64,000 nt of DNA. It comes from Agrobacterium fabrum str. C58 (GTDB lineage Bacteria; Pseudomonadota; Alphaproteobacteria; Rhizobiales; Rhizobiaceae). This document shows positions 3,401-60,135 of the stretch, piece by piece. The notes beneath the pieces were generated by a model. That model was not told the DNA's origin, did no database searches, and saw only the letters and a list, made by a program, of their open reading frames with translations. The stretch is taken from contig NC_003063.2 in the NCBI RefSeq assembly GCF_000092025.1, positions 868,001 through 932,000 of the forward strand, read 5' to 3'. The position numbers were made by a program, and so were the translations under genes. Position 1 is the first letter of the stretch. Every line of letters begins with the position of its first letter.

Positions 3401-5162
3401 GGTTCGGGCGTGGGCCAATGAACGAGACGAGGCTCATGACAAGTTCTTCGCGGATCGGATCGATCGGCGGGTTGGTGACCTGCGCGAAGTTCTGCTTGAA
3501 ATAGGTGTAAAGTAGCTTCGACTTGTCCGACATGGCCGAAATCGGCGTATCGGTGCCCATCGATCCGATGGCTTCCTGCCCGGTCGTCGCCATCGGCGAC
3601 ATCAGGAGCTTGGTGTCCTCGCTGGTGTAACCGAAGGCCTGCTGACGGTCGAGCAGCGACACGTCGCGGCGCAGCGCGCGCGGCTCCACGGGCTTCAGGT
3701 CCTCAAGAATAAGCTGGGTGCGGTCGAGCCAGGTGCGATAAGGATGCTTGGCGGCAAGCTCGTGCTTCACATCCTCATCGGAAATGATCGCACCCTTTTC
3801 CATATCGATCAGCAGCATCTTGCCCGGCTGCAAACGCCACTTCTTGATGATGCGCTCCTCCGGCACCGGCAGCGTGCCGGCTTCGGACGCCATGATGACG
3901 CGGTCATCATCGGTGACGAGATAACGCGCCGGACGCAGGCCGTTACGGTCGAGCGTCGCGCCGATCTGCTTGCCATCGGTGAAGGCAACGGCGGCGGGGC
4001 CGTCCCAGGGCTCCATCAGCGCAGCATGATATTCGTAAAACGCCTTGCGTTCCGCCGACATGGACAGGTTGCCCGACCAGGCTTCCGGGATCAGCATCAT
4101 CACGGCATGGGCCATGGAATAACCGCCGCGCACGAGGAATTCGAGCGCGTTGTCGAAACAGGCGGTATCCGACTGGCCTTCGTAGGAAATCGGCCAGAGC
4201 TTGGAAATGTCATCGCCAAACAGCGCCGACGAAACCGAAGCCTGACGCGCCGCCATCCAGTTGACGTTGCCGCGCAGCGTGTTGATTTCACCGTTATGGG
4301 CAACCATGCGGTAAGGATGTGCCAGCTTCCAGGACGGGAAGGTATTGGTCGAGAAACGCTGATGCACGAGGGCAACGGCAGATTCGAAACGCGGATCCGC
4401 CAGATCCTTGTAATAGGCGCCAACCTGATAGGCGAGGAACATGCCCTTGTAGACGATGGTCGAAGACGACAGCGAAACCGGGTAGAAATCCTGCGTTTCC
4501 TTACCGCCGCCCTCATCATAGATGCGGTTGGAGAGAACCTTGCGGATCAGGAACAGCTTGCGCTCGAAGTCATGATTGGTCGCGGCATCGCGGCCGGCGC
4601 CGATGAAGACCTGAACATGGTGCGGTTCGGTGGCGGCAATATCCGGCGCCTTCGACAGCGAGGAATTATCGACCGGCACGTCGCGGAAGCCGAGGAACTG
4701 CTGCCCCTCTTCGCCGATGACGTCGACGATGACCTTCTTGTAATGCTCGATGCGGGAAGGATCGCGTGGCATGAAGATGTGGCCGACCGCGTATTCGCCG
4801 GCCTTCGGCAACGTCACACCCTGTAGCGCCATTTCCTCGCGGAAGAAACGGTCGGGAATCTGCACGAGAATGCCAGCACCATCGCCCATCAGCGGGTCAG
4901 CGCCAACCGCGCCACGATGCGTGAGGTTCTCGAGGATGAACAGGCCGTCACTGACGATCTGGTGCGACTTGACGCCCTTCATATGGGCGACGAAGCCAAC
5001 GCCGCAGGCGTCATGTTCATTGGCGGGATTGTAAAGACCCTGCCTTTCCGGCAAGCCGCCCGCGAAACGCGCTTTCGCAGAAACGGGTGCGGCCGCAGCC
5101 GCGGTGGGACAGTCTGTGGTCAGGGTTGCAGCGGCGATCTCTGCCTGCGGCTTGTGCGTCAT
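417..5162 (-). CDS. gltB: Glutamate synthase [NADPH] large subunit
   Basis: The 1581-residue alpha subunit of glutamate synthase is the main ammonium-assimilating partner of glutamine synthetase. It has an N-terminal class II glutaminase whose nucleophile is Cys53 (DACGVGF) after a 52-residue propeptide. A central domain and an FMN-binding synthase domain follow (GEGGE and [11 protein letters not shown] motifs). The 3Fe-4S cluster cysteines are C1175, C1181 and C1186. A C-terminal GXGXG beta-helix ends the protein. Length fits the family (about 1500-1580). The ATG is preceded by GCAGGAGGGA, a strong ribosome site. It is first in a gltB-small ORF-gltD unit and diverges from the threonine aldolase gene. 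Nothing suggests damage. Confidence 0.97.
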
Positions 5163-5533
5163 GTTTGTCCCTCCTGCAAAATTACTTGCATGGTTTCATG
5201 CGAAGATCCGGCTCGATACAAATTTCCGCTTCCCGCGAAATCCACATTCAGGCCGGCTGGATCAAATTTAGGACAGCAAGACTGTCTCAATTCCTGCTGA
5301 TTTTGGCAGAAACGGCTGAATTTAGCAAGGGTCCGAATCCAATTAGTGAACACCCCGATTTGCAGCGAAGTTTCGATACTGACCTATTGTAAGAAACTTT
5401 CTTGTCGAAAGAGCCACTGCGCCATTGCTTTCATTGCCCGATTTGCCAATCGCAATCTTAGGTTCTAGAACTTTCTCCGTCATAGCTTCACGCAGCCCAA
5501 CACAGACCCTCAGCTATCGGAAAGCCTTCAGAG
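5163..5533. promoter_or_regulatory. Divergent intergenic region between gltB and the threonine aldolase gene
   Basis: These 371 bases must hold the promoters of both divergent genes. They are noticeably more AT-rich than the flanking genes. An imperfect inverted pair GACAG/CTGTC lies near 5273-5287. I could not pick a convincing -35/-10 pair or a sigma-54 (TGGCAC-N5-TTGCA) promoter for gltB, and I see no RNA element. Confidence 0.4.
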
Positions 5534-7368: not shown

Positions 7369-10071
7369 TTAATCATGATCCAGCACCGGGGTATCGACGG
7401 CGACGGGCAGGCCTATGGTAAATTGCGCTCCGCCGCGATCCGCTCTGTTTTCCGCGCGGATCGAGCCACCCATCGCCTCGATGAACCCCTTGCAGATGGA
7501 AAGACCGAGCCCCGTTCCCGCCTGCACATGGTCAACCTTGCGCACCCGGTAAAAACTGTCGAAGACCCGCTCAAGATCATCGGGCGGAATGCCCGGTCCC
7601 TCATCGGCGACCGAGAGGAAGATATTCTTTCCCTGCCGCCAGCCGCGTATCGCAATGGTCGTATGTTCGGGAGCGTATTTGGCCGCATTGTCGATCAGGT
7701 TGAACAGCACCTGTTCGAAAAGCACGGGATCGACCTTCAGCATCGGCAGGTCGGAGGGGATATCGAGAACGACCTCATGCCGGACAACGATCTTCGCGGC
7801 GCGCGACAGCGCCGTTCCGACCATGTCGCCGAGGAAATGCAGCCCGTAATTCGGCTCCATCGCGCCCGACCCGATCCTCGTCATATCGAGAAGATTGGAG
7901 ATGAAACGGTTCAGCCGTTCGGATTCCTCCACGATCGTCGACAGCAGTTCGGCGCGCGCATCAGGTGGAATGTCATCGGCGAAATCCTTGAGCGTTCCGG
8001 CCGAGCCCAGAATGGCGGCAAGCGGGGTTTTAAGATCGTGGGAAATGGAGGTCAGAAGTGCCGTGCGCAGCCGGTCCGTTTCGGCCGCCAGCCTTGCTCT
8101 ATCCACATCCGAGGCAAGCTGGATACGTTCGACCGCCAGCGCGGCCTGGTCGGCCAACGCATCAAAAAGCCGCTGCTGTTCCGGCGTCAAAAGCGGTCCG
8201 CTTCGGTCGTCATCCAGGCCCACCACACCCACCGCACCGCTGCCGGTGCGAAGCGGGAGATAAAGCCTTTTGGCACCCGGCAAAGTATCCGCGCCACGAC
8301 CTGCCGCCTTGTTATGTTCCCATGCCCATTGTGCGGCGGCGATATCGGCATCCACCAATGTGTCGTCGGGCGGATAACCCGCCTTGACGGCGATGGCGCC
8401 GTTTTCCGGCATGAGCAGGACGACCCTCACCTTCAGCATTGACGCCATCTGATATGCAGCTGCCCACAACACATCATCGAGCGTTCCCGTGCCAGCCAGC
8501 TTTTTCGAAAACAGATAGAGGTCTTCAGTCGTGCGTGCCCTCGAGCGTGCGGAGGCCGCCTGCCGCTGCACCGCGACCGTGAGATTGGAAGCGACCAGCG
8601 CGACGCCGAAGTAGAACAGCAGGGCGACAAGGCTGTCCGGAGAACTGACCGTCAGCGTATAACGCGGCTCCAGAAAGAAGAAATTGAACGCAAGGGCGCC
8701 GAGCAAGGATGCATAAAGCGCCGGTCCGAGCCCCCCGCGCACGGCGGCAGCCAGAACGGCCATCAGGAAGACGAGCGCAAGATTTTGAACGTCGAGCGTC
8801 TGATCGAGTACGATCCCGACGATGATCGCCAACCCGACGAACAAAGTGCTGTTGAGATAGGACCGGAAGGACTGTGGGGATCGTGCCGGTGCGAGCTTCA
8901 CGGCCTGACCCGGCTTTTCCTCGTTCTTGTCGCCGGAAATGACGTGCACGCTGATATCGCCGGCGTGATCGATCAGATCATGGGTCAGCGAGCGCTGAAA
9001 AATCCGCTGCCACCAGGATTTTCGCGGGCGCCCGATGATGATGTGGGTGAAATTATTGGCATTGGCGTAAGCGATGATTTCGCGTGTGAGGTCAAGCGCT
9101 GGCAGGGTTACCGTTTCGCCGCCAAGCTGCTGGGCAAGCCGCATGGTGCCCGCCAGCCGGTCCTTCTCCGCCTCTGATAATTGCTGCGAACGCGGCGTGT
9201 CGAGATGCAGCGCCGTCCACGGCGCGCGCAGTCGGTCCGCCTGCCTTCGGGCATAACGCACAAGACCCGGCCCGTTACGGCCGTGGTCGAGGCAGACCAG
9301 AACCCGGTCCCCCGCCGCCCACGGGCCGGAAATGGCATGGGACTGCATGTGGTTGAGCAATTGCTCGTCCACCCGCTGCGCCGTGCGTCGCAGTGCGAGT
9401 TCGCGCAGCGCTGTCAGGTTGCCCCGGGAGAAATAATTCTCGATGGCGCGCCGGGCGGTACGCGGCAGGTAGACCTTGCCGTCCTGCAGCCGCTTGATCA
9501 GATCATCGGGGGTGATATCGATGATTTCGACGTCGTCGGCGCGGTCGATGATGCTGTCCGGCACCGTTTCGCGCACGCGGATACGGGTGATCTGAGCCAC
9601 CACATCATTCAGGCTTTCGACATGCTGGATGTTGAGCGTCGTATAGACATTGATGCCCTGCGCGAGGATTTCCTGAACATCCATATAGCGCTTGGGGTGG
9701 CGGCTGCCGGCGGCATTGGTGTGGGCGAGTTCATCGACCAGAACCAGAGCGGGGCGACGGGCGAGGATGGCATCGATATCCATCTCCTCCAGTACCTGAC
9801 CGCGATAATCGATGCGCTTGCGCGGGACCACGCTCAACCCTTCGACCAGCGCCTCGGTTTCCCGGCGGCCGTGGGTTTCCACGACACCGATAACGGTATC
9901 GACGCCATCCGCGAGCTTCGCCCGGCCGGACATCAGCATCTCATAGGTCTTGCCGACGCCGGGTGCGGCGCCCAGAAAAATCTTCAGCCGGCCTCTTGCC
10001 TCGCGCTGGGCATTTTCCAGCAGCGCATCGGGCGACGGTCGGCTTGGCATATCGCTGATATCGTCAGGCAT
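7369..10071 (-). CDS. kdpD: Osmosensitive K+ channel sensor histidine kinase KdpD
   Basis: This 900-residue membrane sensor kinase has the full KdpD architecture. The N-terminal KdpD domain has a Walker A at residues 34-42 (GAAPGVGKT) and LVLVDELAH as Walker B. A universal-stress-like domain is at about 250-375. Four close membrane segments lie at about 400-500, followed by a GAF domain. HisKA has the phosphorylated H678 (SISHDLKTPL), and the HATPase has DEGPGIP and GTGLGLSI. It signals to KdpE. It starts 54 bases after the kdpC stop, with a 12-bp hairpin in between that may lower its expression relative to kdpABC. Length is typical (about 890-905). Confidence 0.96.
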   Translation of the reverse strand: MPDDISDMPSRPSPDALLENAQREARGRLKIFLGAAPGVGKTYEMLMSGRAKLADGVDTVIGVVETHGRRETEALVEGLSVVPRKRIDYRGQVLEEMDIDAILARRPALVLVDELAHTNAAGSRHPKRYMDVQEILAQGINVYTTLNIQHVESLNDVVAQITRIRVRETVPDSIIDRADDVEIIDITPDDLIKRLQDGKVYLPRTARRAIENYFSRGNLTALRELALRRTAQRVDEQLLNHMQSHAISGPWAAGDRVLVCLDHGRNGPGLVRYARRQADRLRAPWTALHLDTPRSQQLSEAEKDRLAGTMRLAQQLGGETVTLPALDLTREIIAYANANNFTHIIIGRPRKSWWQRIFQRSLTHDLIDHAGDISVHVISGDKNEEKPGQAVKLAPARSPQSFRSYLNSTLFVGLAIIVGIVLDQTLDVQNLALVFLMAVLAAAVRGGLGPALYASLLGALAFNFFFLEPRYTLTVSSPDSLVALLFYFGVALVASNLTVAVQRQAASARSRARTTEDLYLFSKKLAGTGTLDDVLWAAAYQMASMLKVRVVLLMPENGAIAVKAGYPPDDTLVDADIAAAQWAWEHNKAAGRGADTLPGAKRLYLPLRTGSGAVGVVGLDDDRSGPLLTPEQQRLFDALADQAALAVERIQLASDVDRARLAAETDRLRTALLTSISHDLKTPLAAILGSAGTLKDFADDIPPDARAELLSTIVEESERLNRFISNLLDMTRIGSGAMEPNYGLHFLGDMVGTALSRAAKIVVRHEVVLDIPSDLPMLKVDPVLFEQVLFNLIDNAAKYAPEHTTIAIRGWRQGKNIFLSVADEGPGIPPDDLERVFDSFYRVRKVDHVQAGTGLGLSICKGFIEAMGGSIRAENRADRGGAQFTIGLPVAVDTPVLDHD

Positions 10072-51369: not shown

Positions 51370-52398
51370 CTAAACCGAAAGCTCCCTTCGGATGATTTCC
51401 GCCCCTGCACCCAAAGCATTCAGCTTGCTTCTTGCGACCTGACGCGAGAGGGGTGCCATGCCGCAATTGGTGCAGGGATAAAGCTTGTCGGCATCTACAA
51501 ACCGAAGCGCTTTTCGCAGTGTATCCGCGACTTCCTCGGGGGTCTCGATTGCACTGGTTGCCACGTCAATGGCGCCAACCATCACTTTTTTACCCCGAAT
51601 GAGCTCGATGAGATCCATCGGAACACGGGAGTTGTGGCATTCCAGCGAGATCAGATCGATATTGGACTTCTGCAGTTTGGGGAAAGCTTCCTCATATTGC
51701 CGCCACTCCGACCCGAGAGTCTTTTTCCAGTCCGTATTGGCCTTGATGCCGTAACCGTAGCAAATATGCACGGCAGTTTCACACTTCAGCCCTTCGATTG
51801 CCTTCTCGAGCGTGGCAACGCCCCAATCATTCACCTCGTCAAAAAAGACATTGAATGCGGGCTCGTCGAACTGAATGATGTCGACACCAGCAGCCTCCAG
51901 TTCCCTGGCTTCCTGATTGAGGATCTTGGCAAATTCCCAGGCCAGTTTTTCGCGACTTTTATAGTGGCTGTCATAGAGCGTATCGATCATGGTCATGGGA
52001 CCCGGCAGGGCCCATTTGATGGGCTGCCTGGTTTGCTGACGCAAGAATTTGGCGTCTTCAACAAAAACCGGCTTTTCGCGAGACACTGCGCCAACGACCG
52101 TCGGCACACTGGCATCGTAGCGATTACGAATTCTGACGGTCTCACGTTTTTCAAAATCAACGCCGCTGAGGTGCTCGATAAACGTCGTGACAAAATGTTG
52201 GCGCGTCTGCTCGCCGTCACTGACGATATCGATGCCTGCCTGTTGCTGGTCGTTCAGGGACAATCGCAGGGCATCTCTTTTGCCCTCAATCAATTCCTCA
52301 TCCTGCAATTTCCAGGGTGACCAGAGTTTTTCAGGTTGTGCAAGCCAAGAGGGTTTTGGCAGGCTGCCGGCGGTTGACGTGGGCAACAGTGTTTTCAT
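51370..52398 (-). CDS. mesD: Core methionine synthase MesD
   Basis: This 342-residue protein equals the C-terminal catalytic barrel of MetE without its folate-binding half. The zinc ligands are conserved: H211 and C213 (VHICYGYG), E253 (SLECHNSR) and C312 (CTNCG). The first residues (STAGSLPKPSWL) fit the MetE-core family. The adjacent DUF1852 gene marks it as MesD, the folate-independent, oxygen-requiring methionine synthase that depends on MesX. It methylates homocysteine from a donor that is not methyl-tetrahydrofolate-glutamate. It is the second gene of mesX-mesD. Confidence 0.85.
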   Translation of the reverse strand: MKTLLPTSTAGSLPKPSWLAQPEKLWSPWKLQDEELIEGKRDALRLSLNDQQQAGIDIVSDGEQTRQHFVTTFIEHLSGVDFEKRETVRIRNRYDASVPTVVGAVSREKPVFVEDAKFLRQQTRQPIKWALPGPMTMIDTLYDSHYKSREKLAWEFAKILNQEARELEAAGVDIIQFDEPAFNVFFDEVNDWGVATLEKAIEGLKCETAVHICYGYGIKANTDWKKTLGSEWRQYEEAFPKLQKSNIDLISLECHNSRVPMDLIELIRGKKVMVGAIDVATSAIETPEEVADTLRKALRFVDADKLYPCTNCGMAPLSRQVARSKLNALGAGAEIIRRELSV

Positions 52399-52423
52399 GA
52401 TAGGTTACCTTGTGTTTTGGTCG

Positions 52424-53407
52424 TCAACGGGCGCAATCAGAAGATAATCTCTCGAGAATGGACCGATATGGTCTGATGAAATGCTGCTCGGCAAACCTGC
52501 CCTGCTCGATAGCTAGCCGGCTACGTTCTTCCCGATCATAGACAATTCGAGTGAGTGAATAATCCTGGTGGTTCAGGTCCGGCTGATAGCGAGCGCCCGC
52601 CGCAGAATTGGCGTTATAAATCTCGGGCCGATAGATCTTCTGAAAAGTCTCCATCGTGCTGACGGTGCTGATGAGCTCGAGATTGGTGTAGTCGCCAAGC
52701 AAGTCACTGACAAAATAAAAAGCCAATGGCGCAACGCTATTCGGAGGCATGAAATAGCGGACCCGCAACCCCATTTTTTTGAAATATTGGTCGGTCGAAG
52801 AGAACTCATTCTGCCGGTATTCGACACCCAGTACAGGATGCTGATTGTCAGTTCGGTGATAGGTTTTGCTGCTTGATGCACTCAGGCATATGACTGGCGG
52901 CTTGTTGAAATTCTCTTTGTAAGCAGCCGAGTTCAGGAAACACTTGAACAGGTTTCCGTGCAGATCGCCAAATTTGTCTGGCGTGCTGAATTGGGGCCGG
53001 TCCCTGTTGTGCTCCGGCAGCAAGACGCTGAAGTCGTAATCGCGGACATAGGAAGAAAAATTATTGCCGACAATGCCATCAATGCGCTCGTTGGTTTTTC
53101 GATCAACGATGTTCGTTTTCAGGATTTCAATCAGCGGAAAAGCATCATTCCTGCCTTCAGCACCAATATTCATTTCGACGGATATGATTTCGAGCTCGAC
53201 AGAATAGCGGTCGCCTTCAGGGTTATCCCAATGCGCCAGTGTGTTGAAACGATTGTCGATCATCCTCAGGGCATTGCGCAGGTTCTCCTGACGGTTCTCT
53301 CCCCTAGCCAGATTGGCGAAGTTGGTCGTAACACGCGTGTTTTCTGAAGGATGATAATCTTCATTAAAAGTAACTCTCTTAATATCAAAATTAAAATCTC
53401 TACTCAT
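52424..53407 (-). CDS. mesX: DUF1852 protein MesX
   Basis: This 327-residue DUF1852 protein begins FNFDIKRVTFNEDYHPSENTRVTTNFANLARGENRQENLRNAL, a hallmark of the family. It is the required partner of MesD in methionine synthesis; its chemistry is not settled. It starts with ATG 25 bases before mesD begins after its stop, so the two form an operon. No strong ribosome site is seen (AAGGA about 12 bases upstream). The promoter lies in 53408-53705, facing the riboswitch operon. Confidence 0.88.
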   Translation of the reverse strand: MSRDFNFDIKRVTFNEDYHPSENTRVTTNFANLARGENRQENLRNALRMIDNRFNTLAHWDNPEGDRYSVELEIISVEMNIGAEGRNDAFPLIEILKTNIVDRKTNERIDGIVGNNFSSYVRDYDFSVLLPEHNRDRPQFSTPDKFGDLHGNLFKCFLNSAAYKENFNKPPVICLSASSSKTYHRTDNQHPVLGVEYRQNEFSSTDQYFKKMGLRVRYFMPPNSVAPLAFYFVSDLLGDYTNLELISTVSTMETFQKIYRPEIYNANSAAGARYQPDLNHQDYSLTRIVYDREERSRLAIEQGRFAEQHFIRPYRSILERLSSDCAR

Positions 53408-53705
53408 CGCGATTCGACGTCCTTGTCTCCCGATATAAACCTGAAATTTTTGACTTATGCTTCAGGATATACGAAACATTATTTTCAATTATCTCCAGCC
53501 TGCAACATTCCTGCTGCCCATACTTGAGACTGTGCGTGATATATGCCTGAGACATTGATCGAGTAAAAATGGTTTTATCTCATTGAAGCATGAGCCACGT
53601 TCATGATTTGGCGTAGCGCCGGACTAAAGATCCTCTGCTGCGAACCCCTCAACGCTTCCATGACATTCCGGTGATAGATGCCTTGACCAGTTCAACGACA
53701 TGCGA
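53408..53705. promoter_or_regulatory. mesX promoter region with possible LysR/MetR sites
   Basis: This AT-rich region holds two inverted pairs. CATGA-N7-TCATG is at 53589-53605. CCTGAA...TTCAGG is near 53441-53467. The first contains TGA/TCA halves like MetR boxes (TGAA-N5-TTCA) though it is not a perfect match. Promoters for both mesX (minus) and the riboswitch transcript (plus) should be here; I could not fix their -35/-10. Confidence 0.4.
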
Positions 53706-53902
53706 CATTGGTTAGCCATCGTGGTTCTGCGGACGAAGGTCCGGAGCTAAGAGGGAATTCGGTGAGGGCTTTAATCACAGCCTGAATCCGAAGCTGCCCC
53801 CGCAACTGTAAGCGACGAGCGAAAGTCCATCATGTCACTGAGGCCGGCCTCGGGAAGACGGACCAAAGCTATGACCCGCAAGCCAGGAGACCTGCCGCGA
53901 TA
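53706..53902 (+). ncRNA. Cobalamin (B12) riboswitch
   Basis: The plus strand carries the ordered conserved elements of the class I cobalamin riboswitch. GAGGGAATTCGGTG is at about 53751-53764, GCTGCCCCCGCAACTGTAAGCG near 53793-53814, and the B12 box AGCCAGGAGACCTGCC at 53881-53896. Binding adenosylcobalamin normally shuts off the downstream gene. Here the downstream genes are a hotdog thioesterase and a MetR-like regulator, not a cobalamin or metE gene. Edges are approximate. Confidence 0.95.
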
Positions 53903-53962
53903 GATAACGTCCACGGGCGGGGTGTCCCGGAGTGCCGCTTTCGCGATAGGTATTCCCGTGCC

Positions 53963-54006
53963 TTTGCCTCTGCGTCATGTCCCGCCCTGCCGCAACCTGA
54001 GGCAGA
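53963..54006 (+). promoter_or_regulatory. Stem sequestering the thioesterase ribosome site (riboswitch expression platform)
   Basis: TTTGCCTC (53963-53970) pairs with GAGGCAGA (53999-54006) over 8 bp. The right arm includes GAGG, the ribosome site of the ATG at 54011. It lies 60 bases after the B12 box and is the natural off-state hairpin for translational control. No terminator T-tract is seen. Confidence 0.6.
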
Positions 54007-54010
54007 GCCG

Positions 54011-54841
54011 ATGACAGAGATCGCAACGATAGAAAAGCCTGCTCAGCACGGCGCGACAACCCGTCTCATCGATATCGTCTTTCCCGGAGATACCAACCAT
54101 CACGGCACTCTCTTCGGGGGGACCGGCCTTGCCCTTATGGATCGGGTCGCCTTCATTGCGGCGACCCGCTTCGGACGGACACCCTTCGTGACTGCCTCCT
54201 GCGAACGTATCGACTTCAGACAACCCGCGCGCATCGGGCATATCGTCGAATTCACGGCGAGACCCGTGAAGGCTGGACGCCGTTCCCTCACGGTCGAGGT
54301 GGAAATGGTGGCGGAAACCATTATCGGCCGCCAGCAACACACCTGTACGCGGGGCATCTTCCATATGGTGGCCATACCGGAAGGTGAGGACGCCGCGAGC
54401 TATGTCCTGCCCGAACTCCTCACTGAAGAGACACCTGATCCAAGCGATGCCGTCACCATGGTCGAGATCGTCTTTCCGGATCAGGCAAACAGCGCCGGCC
54501 GGATGTTCGGGGGCGAAGCTATTGCCTATATGACCAAAGCCGCTTTTGTTGCAGCGTCGCGCTACTGCGGCAAGCTGGTGGTGCTGGCCTCATCCGAGCG
54601 CATCGATTTTGCAAGGGCAATCGAGATCGGCGAAATTGTCGAGGCGCAGGCACACGTCGAACGCGTGGGCCGCAGCTCCATGTCGATCCAGACAAAACTC
54701 TGGTCCGAAAATCTTCTGACAGGCGAGAGACACATCACGGCCACCGGACACTTCACCATGGTGGCGGTCGACAAGGACCACCGGCCGGCTACCATTCGCG
54801 ACCCGGCCGAAGCCTTTTCCCTGGAAAAGGGAGGAGCATAA
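54011..54841 (+). CDS. Acyl-CoA thioesterase with two hotdog domains
   Basis: This 276-residue protein is made of two tandem hotdog domains, like eukaryotic ACOT7/ACOT12 rather than the usual one-domain bacterial enzyme. Domain 1 (about 15-125) has NHHGTLFGG and FVTASCERIDFRQPARIG. Domain 2 (about 145-255) has NSAGRMFGGEA and VLASSERIDFARAIEIG. It hydrolyses acyl-CoA, probably as a trimer of double hotdogs. It is the first gene after the cobalamin riboswitch, and a LysR gene follows by 2 bases. Why B12 should control it is not obvious; a link to B12-dependent methylmalonyl-CoA metabolism is possible. Confidence 0.88.
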   Translation: MTEIATIEKPAQHGATTRLIDIVFPGDTNHHGTLFGGTGLALMDRVAFIAATRFGRTPFVTASCERIDFRQPARIGHIVEFTARPVKAGRRSLTVEVEMVAETIIGRQQHTCTRGIFHMVAIPEGEDAASYVLPELLTEETPDPSDAVTMVEIVFPDQANSAGRMFGGEAIAYMTKAAFVAASRYCGKLVVLASSERIDFARAIEIGEIVEAQAHVERVGRSSMSIQTKLWSENLLTGERHITATGHFTMVAVDKDHRPATIRDPAEAFSLEKGGA

Positions 54842-54843
54842 CC

Positions 54844-55731
54844 ATGCTGGACAGGCAACATCTTTCGATCCTGCGTGAAGTCGATCGCATGGGCAGCCTC
54901 ACGGCCGCGGCGGAGCGGCTGAATGTATCCCAGTCGGCTCTCAGCCACACCATCCGCAAGCTGGAAGATCGGTACGGCGTGGCGATGTGGGAAAAGGATG
55001 GCCGCAACCTTCGTCTCACCGACGCAGGCCGCTACATCCTGACGCTGGCACAGCGCGTTCTGCCCCAGATCGAGAGGGCTGAGAATGTTCTGTCGGATTA
55101 TCGCCACGGGCAGCGAGGCTCGCTCAAGATCGGCATGGAGTGCCATCCGTGCCACCAGTGGCTAATGAGTGTCACAAAACCCTACCTCATGGAATGGCCG
55201 GATGTGGGCTTGGAATTGACGACCTCGTTCGCTTTCGGCGGCGTGGCGGCACTGGCTGGATATGAAATCGATATCCTGATCACACCGGATCCGATTGAGA
55301 TGGCCGGGGTCCACTATTTGCCGGTGTTCGACTACGAACTGGTGCTCGCGGTGCCAGTCGATCATCCGCTGGCGTTGAAACGCCATGCCGAACCTGCGGA
55401 TCTGCTGGATGAGACGCTATTCACCTATCCGGTACCGCCGGAGCGGCTGGATGTGTTCTCGCAATTCCTGGTACCTGCCAATTGCCGCCCGCGTCATCAC
55501 CGCAATATCGAAACGACGGAAATGATGCTCCAGCTCGTGGCGGCAGGCCGCGGGGTTAGCGCCATTCCCGATTGGCTGGTGCGACGGGAAGCGGCAGCAC
55601 TCGGTGTCCGCGCCGTCCGCATCGGTCAGAGCGGTATCCAGAAAAGCATCCATCTCGGTTTAAGAGATGGTGACGATACTGTCGATTTCATCGCCGGGTT
55701 TCTCGAGACGTCGCGTCAAATATTAGCCTGA
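54844..55731 (+). CDS. LysR-family regulator, MetR-like
   Basis: This 295-residue LysR protein has an HTH at 1-60 (MGSLTAAAERLNVSQSALSHTIRKLED). An effector domain follows that resembles MetR, the homocysteine-responsive activator of methionine genes (MECHPCHQWLMSVTKPYLMEWPDVGLEL). The ATG follows GGGAGGAGC in the end of the thioesterase gene, so it is co-transcribed and under the same riboswitch. The divergent mesX-mesD operon is its most likely target. Confidence 0.82.
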   Translation: MLDRQHLSILREVDRMGSLTAAAERLNVSQSALSHTIRKLEDRYGVAMWEKDGRNLRLTDAGRYILTLAQRVLPQIERAENVLSDYRHGQRGSLKIGMECHPCHQWLMSVTKPYLMEWPDVGLELTTSFAFGGVAALAGYEIDILITPDPIEMAGVHYLPVFDYELVLAVPVDHPLALKRHAEPADLLDETLFTYPVPPERLDVFSQFLVPANCRPRHHRNIETTEMMLQLVAAGRGVSAIPDWLVRREAAALGVRAVRIGQSGIQKSIHLGLRDGDDTVDFIAGFLETSRQILA

Positions 55732-58944: not shown

Positions 58945-60135
58945 ATGGCTATCATCATGAACAAGCTTTCTGCGAGGGCGGTAGAAACAATCAGCAAGCC
59001 AGGCCGCCATGGAGACGGCGGTGGCCTTTACTTGGTGGTAGACAAGAGCGGAGCGAAGAGATGGGTGTTCCTCTACCGTCGCAGCGACCGACTCCGGGAA
59101 ATGGGTTTGGGCGGAGTACATTCCGTCACGCTAGCAAAGGCCCGCGAACTGGCCCAAGATGCGCGAACGAAGTTACAAGCCGGCGTCGATCCAATCCAAG
59201 CAAAGCACACCGCACCGCCACTCGTTCCAACGTTCGGCGATGAGGCAGACGATTTTATCGCAGCCATGAAGCCTCAGTTCAGAAATGCGAAACACGTCGC
59301 GCAGTGGGAAATGACGTTGCGCGAGTATGCCGCACCCCTCCGTCAGAAGCTGATCACTGAGGTGACGACTGCAGATGTCCTCGGGGTATTGAAGCCGATT
59401 TGGCTCACGAAATCGGAGACAGCATCACGCGTTCGAGGTAGAATAGAACGCGTGCTTGACGCAGCAAAGGCGAAGGGGCTCCGGACTGGCGAGAACCCGG
59501 CCCTATGGCGCGGTCATCTCGACAAACTACTGCCCAAGCGCAGGAAGCTGGCGCGCGGGCATCACAAAGCGATGCCCTATGCCGACGTCGCAGCGTTCAT
59601 TATCGAGTTGCGTAAACGTGAGGCCGTCGCGGCTACCGCGTTGGAGTTCACGATCCTGACCGCTGCCCGATCCGGTGAAACACTGGGCGCGAAATGGCAT
59701 GAAATTGATTGGAAAGACAAAATCTGGACGGTGCCGGCCGAACGGATGAAGGCGGCTCGGGAGCATCGTGTTCCCTTGTCTTCTCGCACTATTACGATCC
59801 TTAAAAAACTTGCGGAATTCGGCTCCGACGAAAACTCATTCGTTTTTCCAGGGCAGAAACCTGGGAAGCCGTTGTCTGTGATGGCAATGGACATGGTATT
59901 GCGCCGAATGGAAGTGGACGTGACTGTGCACGGCTTTCGCTCATCTTTCCGAGATTGGTGTGGCGAAGTATCAAACTTCCCGCGCGACGTGGCGGAGGCT
60001 GCACTGGCTCATGTCGTCGGCGACAAAACGGAACGCGCTTACCGCAGAGGCGATGCTCTTGAGAAGCGTCGGAAGCTTATGGCTGCCTGGGAAAAATTTT
60101 GCATTGCGGAAATTAAGAAGAACCCGAATTCGTAG
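58945..60135 (+). CDS. P4-type tyrosine integrase
   Basis: This 396-residue site-specific recombinase has an N-terminal DUF4102 arm-binding domain (about 5-90, GRHGDGGGLYLVV), an SAM-like core-binding domain and a catalytic domain. The catalytic set is R242 (TAARSGE), H329 and R332 (VHGFRSSFRDW), H356 (LAHVVG) and the nucleophile Y366 (RAYRRGD). All key residues are present, so it should be active. It marks the left end of an island whose cargo is less GC-rich than the chromosome. Start could be the ATG at 58957 as well. Confidence 0.93.
   Translation: MAIIMNKLSARAVETISKPGRHGDGGGLYLVVDKSGAKRWVFLYRRSDRLREMGLGGVHSVTLAKARELAQDARTKLQAGVDPIQAKHTAPPLVPTFGDEADDFIAAMKPQFRNAKHVAQWEMTLREYAAPLRQKLITEVTTADVLGVLKPIWLTKSETASRVRGRIERVLDAAKAKGLRTGENPALWRGHLDKLLPKRRKLARGHHKAMPYADVAAFIIELRKREAVAATALEFTILTAARSGETLGAKWHEIDWKDKIWTVPAERMKAAREHRVPLSSRTITILKKLAEFGSDENSFVFPGQKPGKPLSVMAMDMVLRRMEVDVTVHGFRSSFRDWCGEVSNFPRDVAEAALAHVVGDKTERAYRRGDALEKRRKLMAAWEKFCIAEIKKNPNS

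Follow-up and report, generated by a model that had tools for sequence, protein, structure and literature searches.

A cobalamin riboswitch on a MetR-like regulator gene as a predicted relay for B12 control of the MesX/MesD methionine synthase in Agrobacterium fabrum

A predicted relay switch

The genes for the methionine synthase MesD and its partner MesX lie back to back with a cobalamin (vitamin B12) riboswitch, a thioesterase gene and the gene for a MetR-like LysR-type regulator (hereafter LysR) on the second replicon (2.08 Mb) of the 5.67-Mb genome of Agrobacterium fabrum str. C58. The stretch of DNA analysed, referred to as the window, is 64,000 nucleotides (nt) long and covers positions 868,001 to 932,000 of contig NC_003063.2; all coordinates are those of the window. 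Comparison of the order and spacing of these elements across genomes indicates that the locus is probably a relay switch, which would hold MesX/MesD off while B12 is plentiful through a LysR whose synthesis is under riboswitch control.

When B12 is bound to the riboswitch in the leader of the thioesterase–LysR transcript, less LysR would be made, and with LysR low mesXD would be off and MetH, the B12-dependent alternative, active. When B12 is short, LysR would be made, bind to a tandem box between the divergent genes and activate the mesX promoter. Homocysteine is the probable co-inducer of LysR, as with classical MetR, and mesXD expression would then need both low B12 and accumulating homocysteine. 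Translation of LysR would be coupled to the upstream open reading frame (ORF). A gene for CobN cobaltochelatase is present in the host genome, so internally supplied B12 or cobalt may act as the signal in addition to the external vitamin.

Components of the locus

The sequence-only reading of the window had placed mesD and mesX on one strand and the riboswitch, the thioesterase gene and the LysR gene on the other, and profile and covariance scores bear out these coordinates and strands. MesD (51370..52398, minus strand), a folate-independent core methionine synthase, scores 713 bits against NCBIfam NF006589 (cut-off 392) and 132 bits against PF01717, and MesX (52424..53407, minus strand), its putative oxygenase partner, scores 632.6 bits against PF08908 (cut-off 25), and so MesD shows both an above-cut-off profile match and a PF08908 MesX neighbour, by which its family is recognized. 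By analogy with other members of the family, for which this has been shown (PMC7857596), MesD would make methionine without B12 or methyl-folate. The riboswitch aptamer (RF00174; 53705..53913, plus strand), one of six cobalamin riboswitches in the host genome, covers model positions 1–189 of 189 with a score of 137.1 bits (cut-off 31.5; E 2e-34).

The first gene of the riboswitch operon (54011..54841, plus strand) encodes a double hot-dog acyl-CoA thioesterase, which matches PF03061 with 116 bits over two stretches, corresponding to tandem hot-dog domains. Its score against the YciA family NF007970 is 86.7 bits, under the cut-off of 162, and it is placed in the hot-dog thioesterase superfamily only. 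The LysR gene (54844..55731, plus strand) begins with an ATG that lies 3 nt past the last base of the thioesterase stop codon, with 2 nt between them. LysR carries PF00126 and PF03466, its solved relatives are 4ab5 (1e-34) and the MetR DNA-binding domain 5fo5 (3e-12), and its top NCBIfam match is MetR NF011950 (199.5–200.2 bits; 117 bits for the runner-up family). When the host genome is searched with the MetR profile, LysR is the best match by 143 bits (200 against 57.5 for the next). Chance as the origin of the layout is rejected, since 25 of 29 loci share it and the riboswitch, MesX and MesD scores are far over their cut-offs.

Conservation of the LysR–mesXD divergon

With the LysR protein as query, species genomes yielded 40 loci, in 29 of which mesXD is divergent from LysR. 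A B12 riboswitch lies between mesX and LysR in 25 of these 29 loci, always on the LysR strand (25/25) and with aptamer scores from 124.6 to 137.7 bits. The riboswitch is found in none of the 11 loci without adjacent mesXD, of which three (L059–L061) are just 26–28% similar and five more distant ones (L052, L054–L057) diverge from full-length MetE, so that the MetR-like divergent pairing with a methionine synthase gene is seen in these five as well as in the 29. Loci of A. tumefaciens, A. salinitolerans and A. bohemicum match those of the window genus in riboswitch score and layout. The genus loci L010–L021 partly overlap the named loci of the species scan and are not added to the 29. The comparison in related genomes that had been proposed from the sequence alone thus finds the arrangement recurring, and restriction of the synteny to one strain is excluded, as the layout recurs across species. 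One further record, titled Bacillus subtilis strain SK6B4 (L050), has a LysR that groups with Pseudochrobactrum (100/100) and an ORF layout nearly that of L051, and is probably contaminated or mislabelled.

MesX itself is patchily distributed, being present in 2 of 297 order genomes sampled, 13 of 39 genus genomes and 44 of 398 genomes of a phylum sample; mesX loci were read in the genomes listed with loci, which are all 13 in the genus and 29 of the 43 other MesX genomes of the phylum. A close LysR orthologue (at least 82% identity) occurs in 11 of the 13 genus mesX genomes, all 11 of which have the riboswitch on the LysR strand; in the larger genomes, the genus-genome search behind these LysR counts scored some but not all of the first-look candidates (61 at most). 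In the LysR tree, the 31 mesXD-linked LysR proteins group together (100/94). Since 18 of its 43 inner branches are open and long branches occur, the tree was not used to decide between loss of the riboswitch in the four loci without it and gain in the others.

Direct riboswitch control in loci without LysR

In seven mesXD loci without an adjacent LysR gene (L008, L020, L021, L087, L115, L116 and L117), the riboswitch lies directly upstream of mesX. No LysR match was found by tblastn at 1e-3 in those seven stretches, nor genome-wide at 1e-30 in four of the seven genomes, those of L008 (G154) and L087 (G666) and also G329 and G330, the two genus mesX genomes without a close LysR, in which the riboswitch is on the mesX strand. 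This direct layout is found on plasmids of A. tumefaciens (L116), Paracoccus aminovorans (L117) and Sphingomonas NY01 (L115). The strand of the riboswitch is associated with the presence of LysR with a P of 3e-7, a value that ignores relatedness, and the seven loci represent fewer independent events because L020, L021 and L116 are closely related. In the wider phylum, 29 mesX loci scanned with 1.5-kb flanks contain the riboswitch in one case (L087) and a LysR relative beside mesX in four.

The riboswitch is also directly upstream of metE in 8 of 8 metE loci checked (10 metE genomes). MetE (10 genomes) and MesXD (13 genomes) never occur together in the 39 genus genomes (P 0.008, ignoring relatedness); MetH is present in all 39, and 16 have neither MetE nor MesXD. 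In agreement with a role of B12 as the off signal, the DUF1852 (mesX) transcript of two Acinetobacter strains dropped by log2 8.3 and 8.1 with methylcobalamin (PMC12892962), which by analogy supports such a role for the MesX enzyme in an unrelated setting, and not the relay.

Several mesXD loci lie among further B12 riboswitches. On the 73-kb plasmid pSU277_4 of Sinorhizobium medicae (L114), three of them within 6 kb (2087–2306, 2488–2698 and 7577–7789) precede a DUF1636/methyltransferase unit, thioesterase–LysR–mesXD and nrdHIE, respectively, forming an island of B12-independent functions. L028–L032, L046 and L058 have a second B12 riboswitch no more than a few kb from the mesXD cassette, and the ORF after it looks, by eye, like the NrdI annotated in L114. 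It looks as if B12-independent isozymes were clustered around the cassette. In the window, a 396-residue ORF at 58945–60135, close to the cassette and by eye tyrosine-integrase-like, would fit a mobile neighbourhood.

Tandem MetR-type boxes before mesX

The intergenic region between mesX and LysR contains two MetR-type boxes 21 base pairs (bp) apart. The published MetR consensus is ATGAA-N5-TTCAT, and PF08908–metE2 is among the MetR targets (Leyn et al. 2014, PMC4239095). The distal box (ATGAGCCACGTTCAT, 53590..53604), the putative recognition site, has 1 mismatch of 10 to this consensus and the conserved form ATGAG-N5-YTCAT, and the proximal box (ATGGTTTTATCTCAT, 53569..53583), the putative activation site, is recognized by column conservation over 30 aligned rows, from which L012 and L016 were left out as near-duplicates of L022 and L035. 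Column conservation of the boxes averages 1.52 bits in these anchored rows, against 0.62 bits in the left flank and 0.21 bits in the right flank. The left flank includes a conserved −10-like block (53541..53550, minus strand; GGCATA on the mesX strand), part of a candidate mesX promoter, which stands at the same distance from the boxes in S. medicae. A strong distal and a weak proximal box ahead of a −10-like block is the classical layout of a LysR activator.

The tandem box is present in 29 of 29 LysR–mesXD loci when up to 2 mismatches to ATGAG-N5-TTCAT are allowed in the distal box, and boxes with the 21-bp spacing also stand beside LysR in the distant riboswitch-free mesX loci L106, L108 and L109. 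Matches to ATGAA-N5-TTCAT with at most 1 mismatch occur in 20 of 32 intergenes (2.5% of shuffles) and with at most 2 in 31 of 32 (20% of shuffles); for the single sequence of the window the support is modest, since 3.7% of shuffles of its intergene score as well. LysR-less mesX loci have a best match with 3 mismatches (2 in L117). A strict two-box pattern occurs in 12 of the 39 genus genomes, the same 12 in which a LysR search at 1e-60 scores with this LysR or a paralogue. Its 13 sites comprise 11 in the mesX–LysR intergene and two directly upstream of LysR paralogues; none is found in the two genus mesXD genomes without LysR, and a reversed control pattern has no site in the 39 genomes. The two paralogues (L073 in G311 and L074 in G299) are 57–59% identical to LysR and have an adjacent aminotransferase gene.

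The locus of S. medicae separates the two promoters that the boxes could serve, its order on one strand being riboswitch, thioesterase, LysR, mesX and mesD. Before its mesX stand the first box, 6 bp, the second box, 21 bp and GACATA, with the spacing of the mesX strand of the window, and no box match better than 3 mismatches is found in the stretch before its riboswitch. In the window, 197 bp separate the first box from the mesX start. The annotated start of S. medicae is 125 bp from that box; alignment with the MesX of the window moves the start about 66 bp further on, which would give about 191 bp. Because S. medicae keeps the boxes and their spacing before mesX and not before the riboswitch, the tandem site is most likely part of the mesX promoter.

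Repression of their own divergent gene is common among LysR-type regulators. LysR might accordingly repress mesXD, or only itself, in which case mesXD expression would go up with B12 or stay as it is, and the two paralogues with the tandem box directly upstream of their own genes are in line with this. It is nevertheless scarcely probable. The distal box is about 80 bp from the TTGACC element of the LysR operon, yet the boxes are at an activator-like distance from the −10-like block of mesX and stay with mesX in S. medicae, and the riboswitches directly on mesX and metE in relatives suggest that B12 is the off signal for B12-independent synthesis. Activation of mesXD by LysR is preferred here, and the wiring proposed by the sequence-only reading, with the riboswitch acting on the regulator, the regulator on mesXD and MetH as the B12-dependent alternative, gains support from the comparative evidence: a LysR-strand riboswitch in 25 of 29 loci with LysR (and none in the other four) against a mesX-strand riboswitch in the seven without it, the occurrence of LysR and the tandem site together in 12 of 39 genomes, the position of that site next to mesX in S. 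medicae, and MetH in every genus genome.

The riboswitch transcript

A candidate promoter of the riboswitch–thioesterase–LysR transcript (TTGACC, 17 nt, CATTGG; 53683..53711, plus strand) is marked by the position of TTGACC, which begins exactly 22 nt upstream of the riboswitch in the window and in each of the 25 riboswitch loci. A sigma-70 consensus scanner found no promoter in 53300–54100. The aptamer is followed immediately by a hairpin (53914..53930, plus strand) with a GCGGGG loop able to pair with CCCCGC in the aptamer, which is presumably a P13/L13-like kissing loop. Of its 17 columns, 16 are invariant and one is at least 90% conserved, and its three stem pairs hold in 20 of 20 sequences without any variation; the promoter comparison took 25 sequences and the hairpin comparison 20, not all loci. 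The start-codon region is predicted to be structured.

The conservation of the aptamer bears on the view that LysR is a constitutive activator responding to homocysteine and that the riboswitch, weak or decayed, modulates it to little effect. That MetR is known to respond to homocysteine (PMC4239095) and that the divergon occurs without riboswitch in 4 of 29 loci are consistent with this view; it is quite improbable all the same, because decay would not leave the high aptamer scores of the 25 loci together with a nearly invariant hairpin downstream.

The thioesterase frame and translational coupling

The riboswitch is followed first by the thioesterase gene, whose product is full length (273–278 amino acids) in 13 of 25 riboswitch loci, and the riboswitch might therefore mainly control the thioesterase, with LysR a bystander in the operon whose own expression is sufficient. 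In the Sphingomonas plasmid p1 locus, which has no LysR match in its stretch, a riboswitch also precedes a distant thioesterase relative (49% identical). The mesX gene of this locus has, however, a second riboswitch of its own, as expected without a relay, the two riboswitches (4641–4862 and 5011–5210) lying back to back, and IS66 transposase genes follow the thioesterase. Moreover, the thioesterase is shortened or missing in 12 of the 25 riboswitch loci while the riboswitch and LysR are retained, and control aimed at the thioesterase is very unlikely.

Control of LysR by the riboswitch is in better accord with the fate of this frame. The thioesterase is shortened in frame in nine loci (L023, L028–L030, L033, L038, L046, L047 and L053), in roughly six separate lineages as judged by eye, and gone in three (L039, L042 and L044), where the leftover frame has at most 11 codons or, in L039, continues out of frame beyond the start of LysR. 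Because the frame ends 1–2 nt short of the LysR ATG in all nine shortened and all 13 full-length cases, selection for a translated leader coupled to LysR may have acted on it.

Weighing the relay

Several observations weigh against the relay as proposed. The three loci that have lost the thioesterase are without a coupled-type leader ORF, which counts against coupling being essential, and four of the 29 loci, three of Bosea and one of a Beijerinckiaceae metagenome-assembled genome (L040, L041, L043 and L045), keep LysR, boxes and mesXD without a riboswitch. As to the expression platform, a scanner found no intrinsic terminator at the locus; for a possible sequestration of the start codon, no leader pair with changes on both sides was seen and hence no covariation, and forcing the P13/L13 hairpin gave no consistent change in the predicted accessibility of the start codon in 20 sequences. 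LysR scores below the MetR equivalog cut-off (199.5–200.2 against 382 bits), and for this reason its predicted sensing of homocysteine is borrowed from MetR. The strict two-box pattern was written from mesX–LysR loci, and its occurrence at the 11 intergene sites is therefore by construction; what the result shows independently is that the pattern is absent elsewhere, is present in single copy and occurs at the two paralogue sites, from which it was not written. For every LysR–mesXD locus, the predicted relay rests on comparative evidence. The family of Acinetobacter, in which the B12 effect on mesX was seen, is presumably Moraxellaceae. MetR has been reported to be absent from that family (PMC4239095).

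A more detailed and tentative proposal, somewhat less probable than even, is that the locus works as a two-signal gate whose regulator has one target. Low B12 would permit LysR synthesis, homocysteine accumulating behind a starved MetH would activate LysR, and mesXD would be on only with both. The riboswitch–promoter unit would lie between the site of an apparently older LysR–mesXD divergon and the LysR gene, and the thioesterase would be kept in many lineages as a short leader ORF that passes the riboswitch effect on by coupled translation.

Comparison with known systems

B12 riboswitches are normally located on the gene served. One genus appears to use three wirings for one decision, the riboswitch being on metE, on mesXD or on a regulator apparently driving mesXD, so that the second signal, gain and delay which a protein relay may add to a direct switch can be tested directly. 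The B12-free methionine synthase has been reported to be insensitive to nitrous oxide (PMC13059711), and the proposed switch would predict the deployment of this insensitive enzyme by soil and plant-associated bacteria.

The closest known system is the B12 riboswitch that directly controls metE, the B12-independent methionine synthase (PMC2770081), with the same sensor and the same purpose, B12 control of a B12-independent isozyme; here, in contrast, MesXD is the synthase, and the transcript that carries the riboswitch is that of a regulator on the opposite strand. The MesD/MesX pair of Acinetobacter and Sphingomonas is the same enzyme pair (Price et al. 2021, PMC7857596), and in the main text of that paper, which does not have regulation as its subject, the terms riboswitch and LysR do not occur; the text proper of Sun et al. 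(PMC3766115) does not contain the term LysR either. A MetR box and a mesX–mesD target have already been predicted in several taxa, whereas in the passages covered of that work alphaproteobacterial MetR orthologues are reported for Rhodobacterales alone and a B12 riboswitch on metR goes unmentioned (Leyn et al. 2014, PMC4239095). The guanine riboswitch of nupR in Bacillus thuringiensis is also a sense riboswitch in the leader of a transcription factor gene, a situation called rare by its authors, although ligand, regulator family and targets differ (PMC9430930). In Listeria, a B12 riboswitch likewise controls a transcription factor, PocR, but there through an antisense RNA, so that PocR is made B12-requiring, for B12-dependent enzymes, whereas here the riboswitch is a sense leader and the target is B12-independent (PMC9943018). 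A B12 riboswitch on a MetR-like gene beside mesXD was not found in the titles, abstract starts and passages covered, which included few subscription journals. The separate elements are thus known, namely B12 riboswitches on isozymes that work without B12, MetR control of mesXD as a prediction and, rarely, riboswitches on regulator genes, and what is new is their combination, in which B12 control of the isozyme would be relayed through a dedicated regulator.

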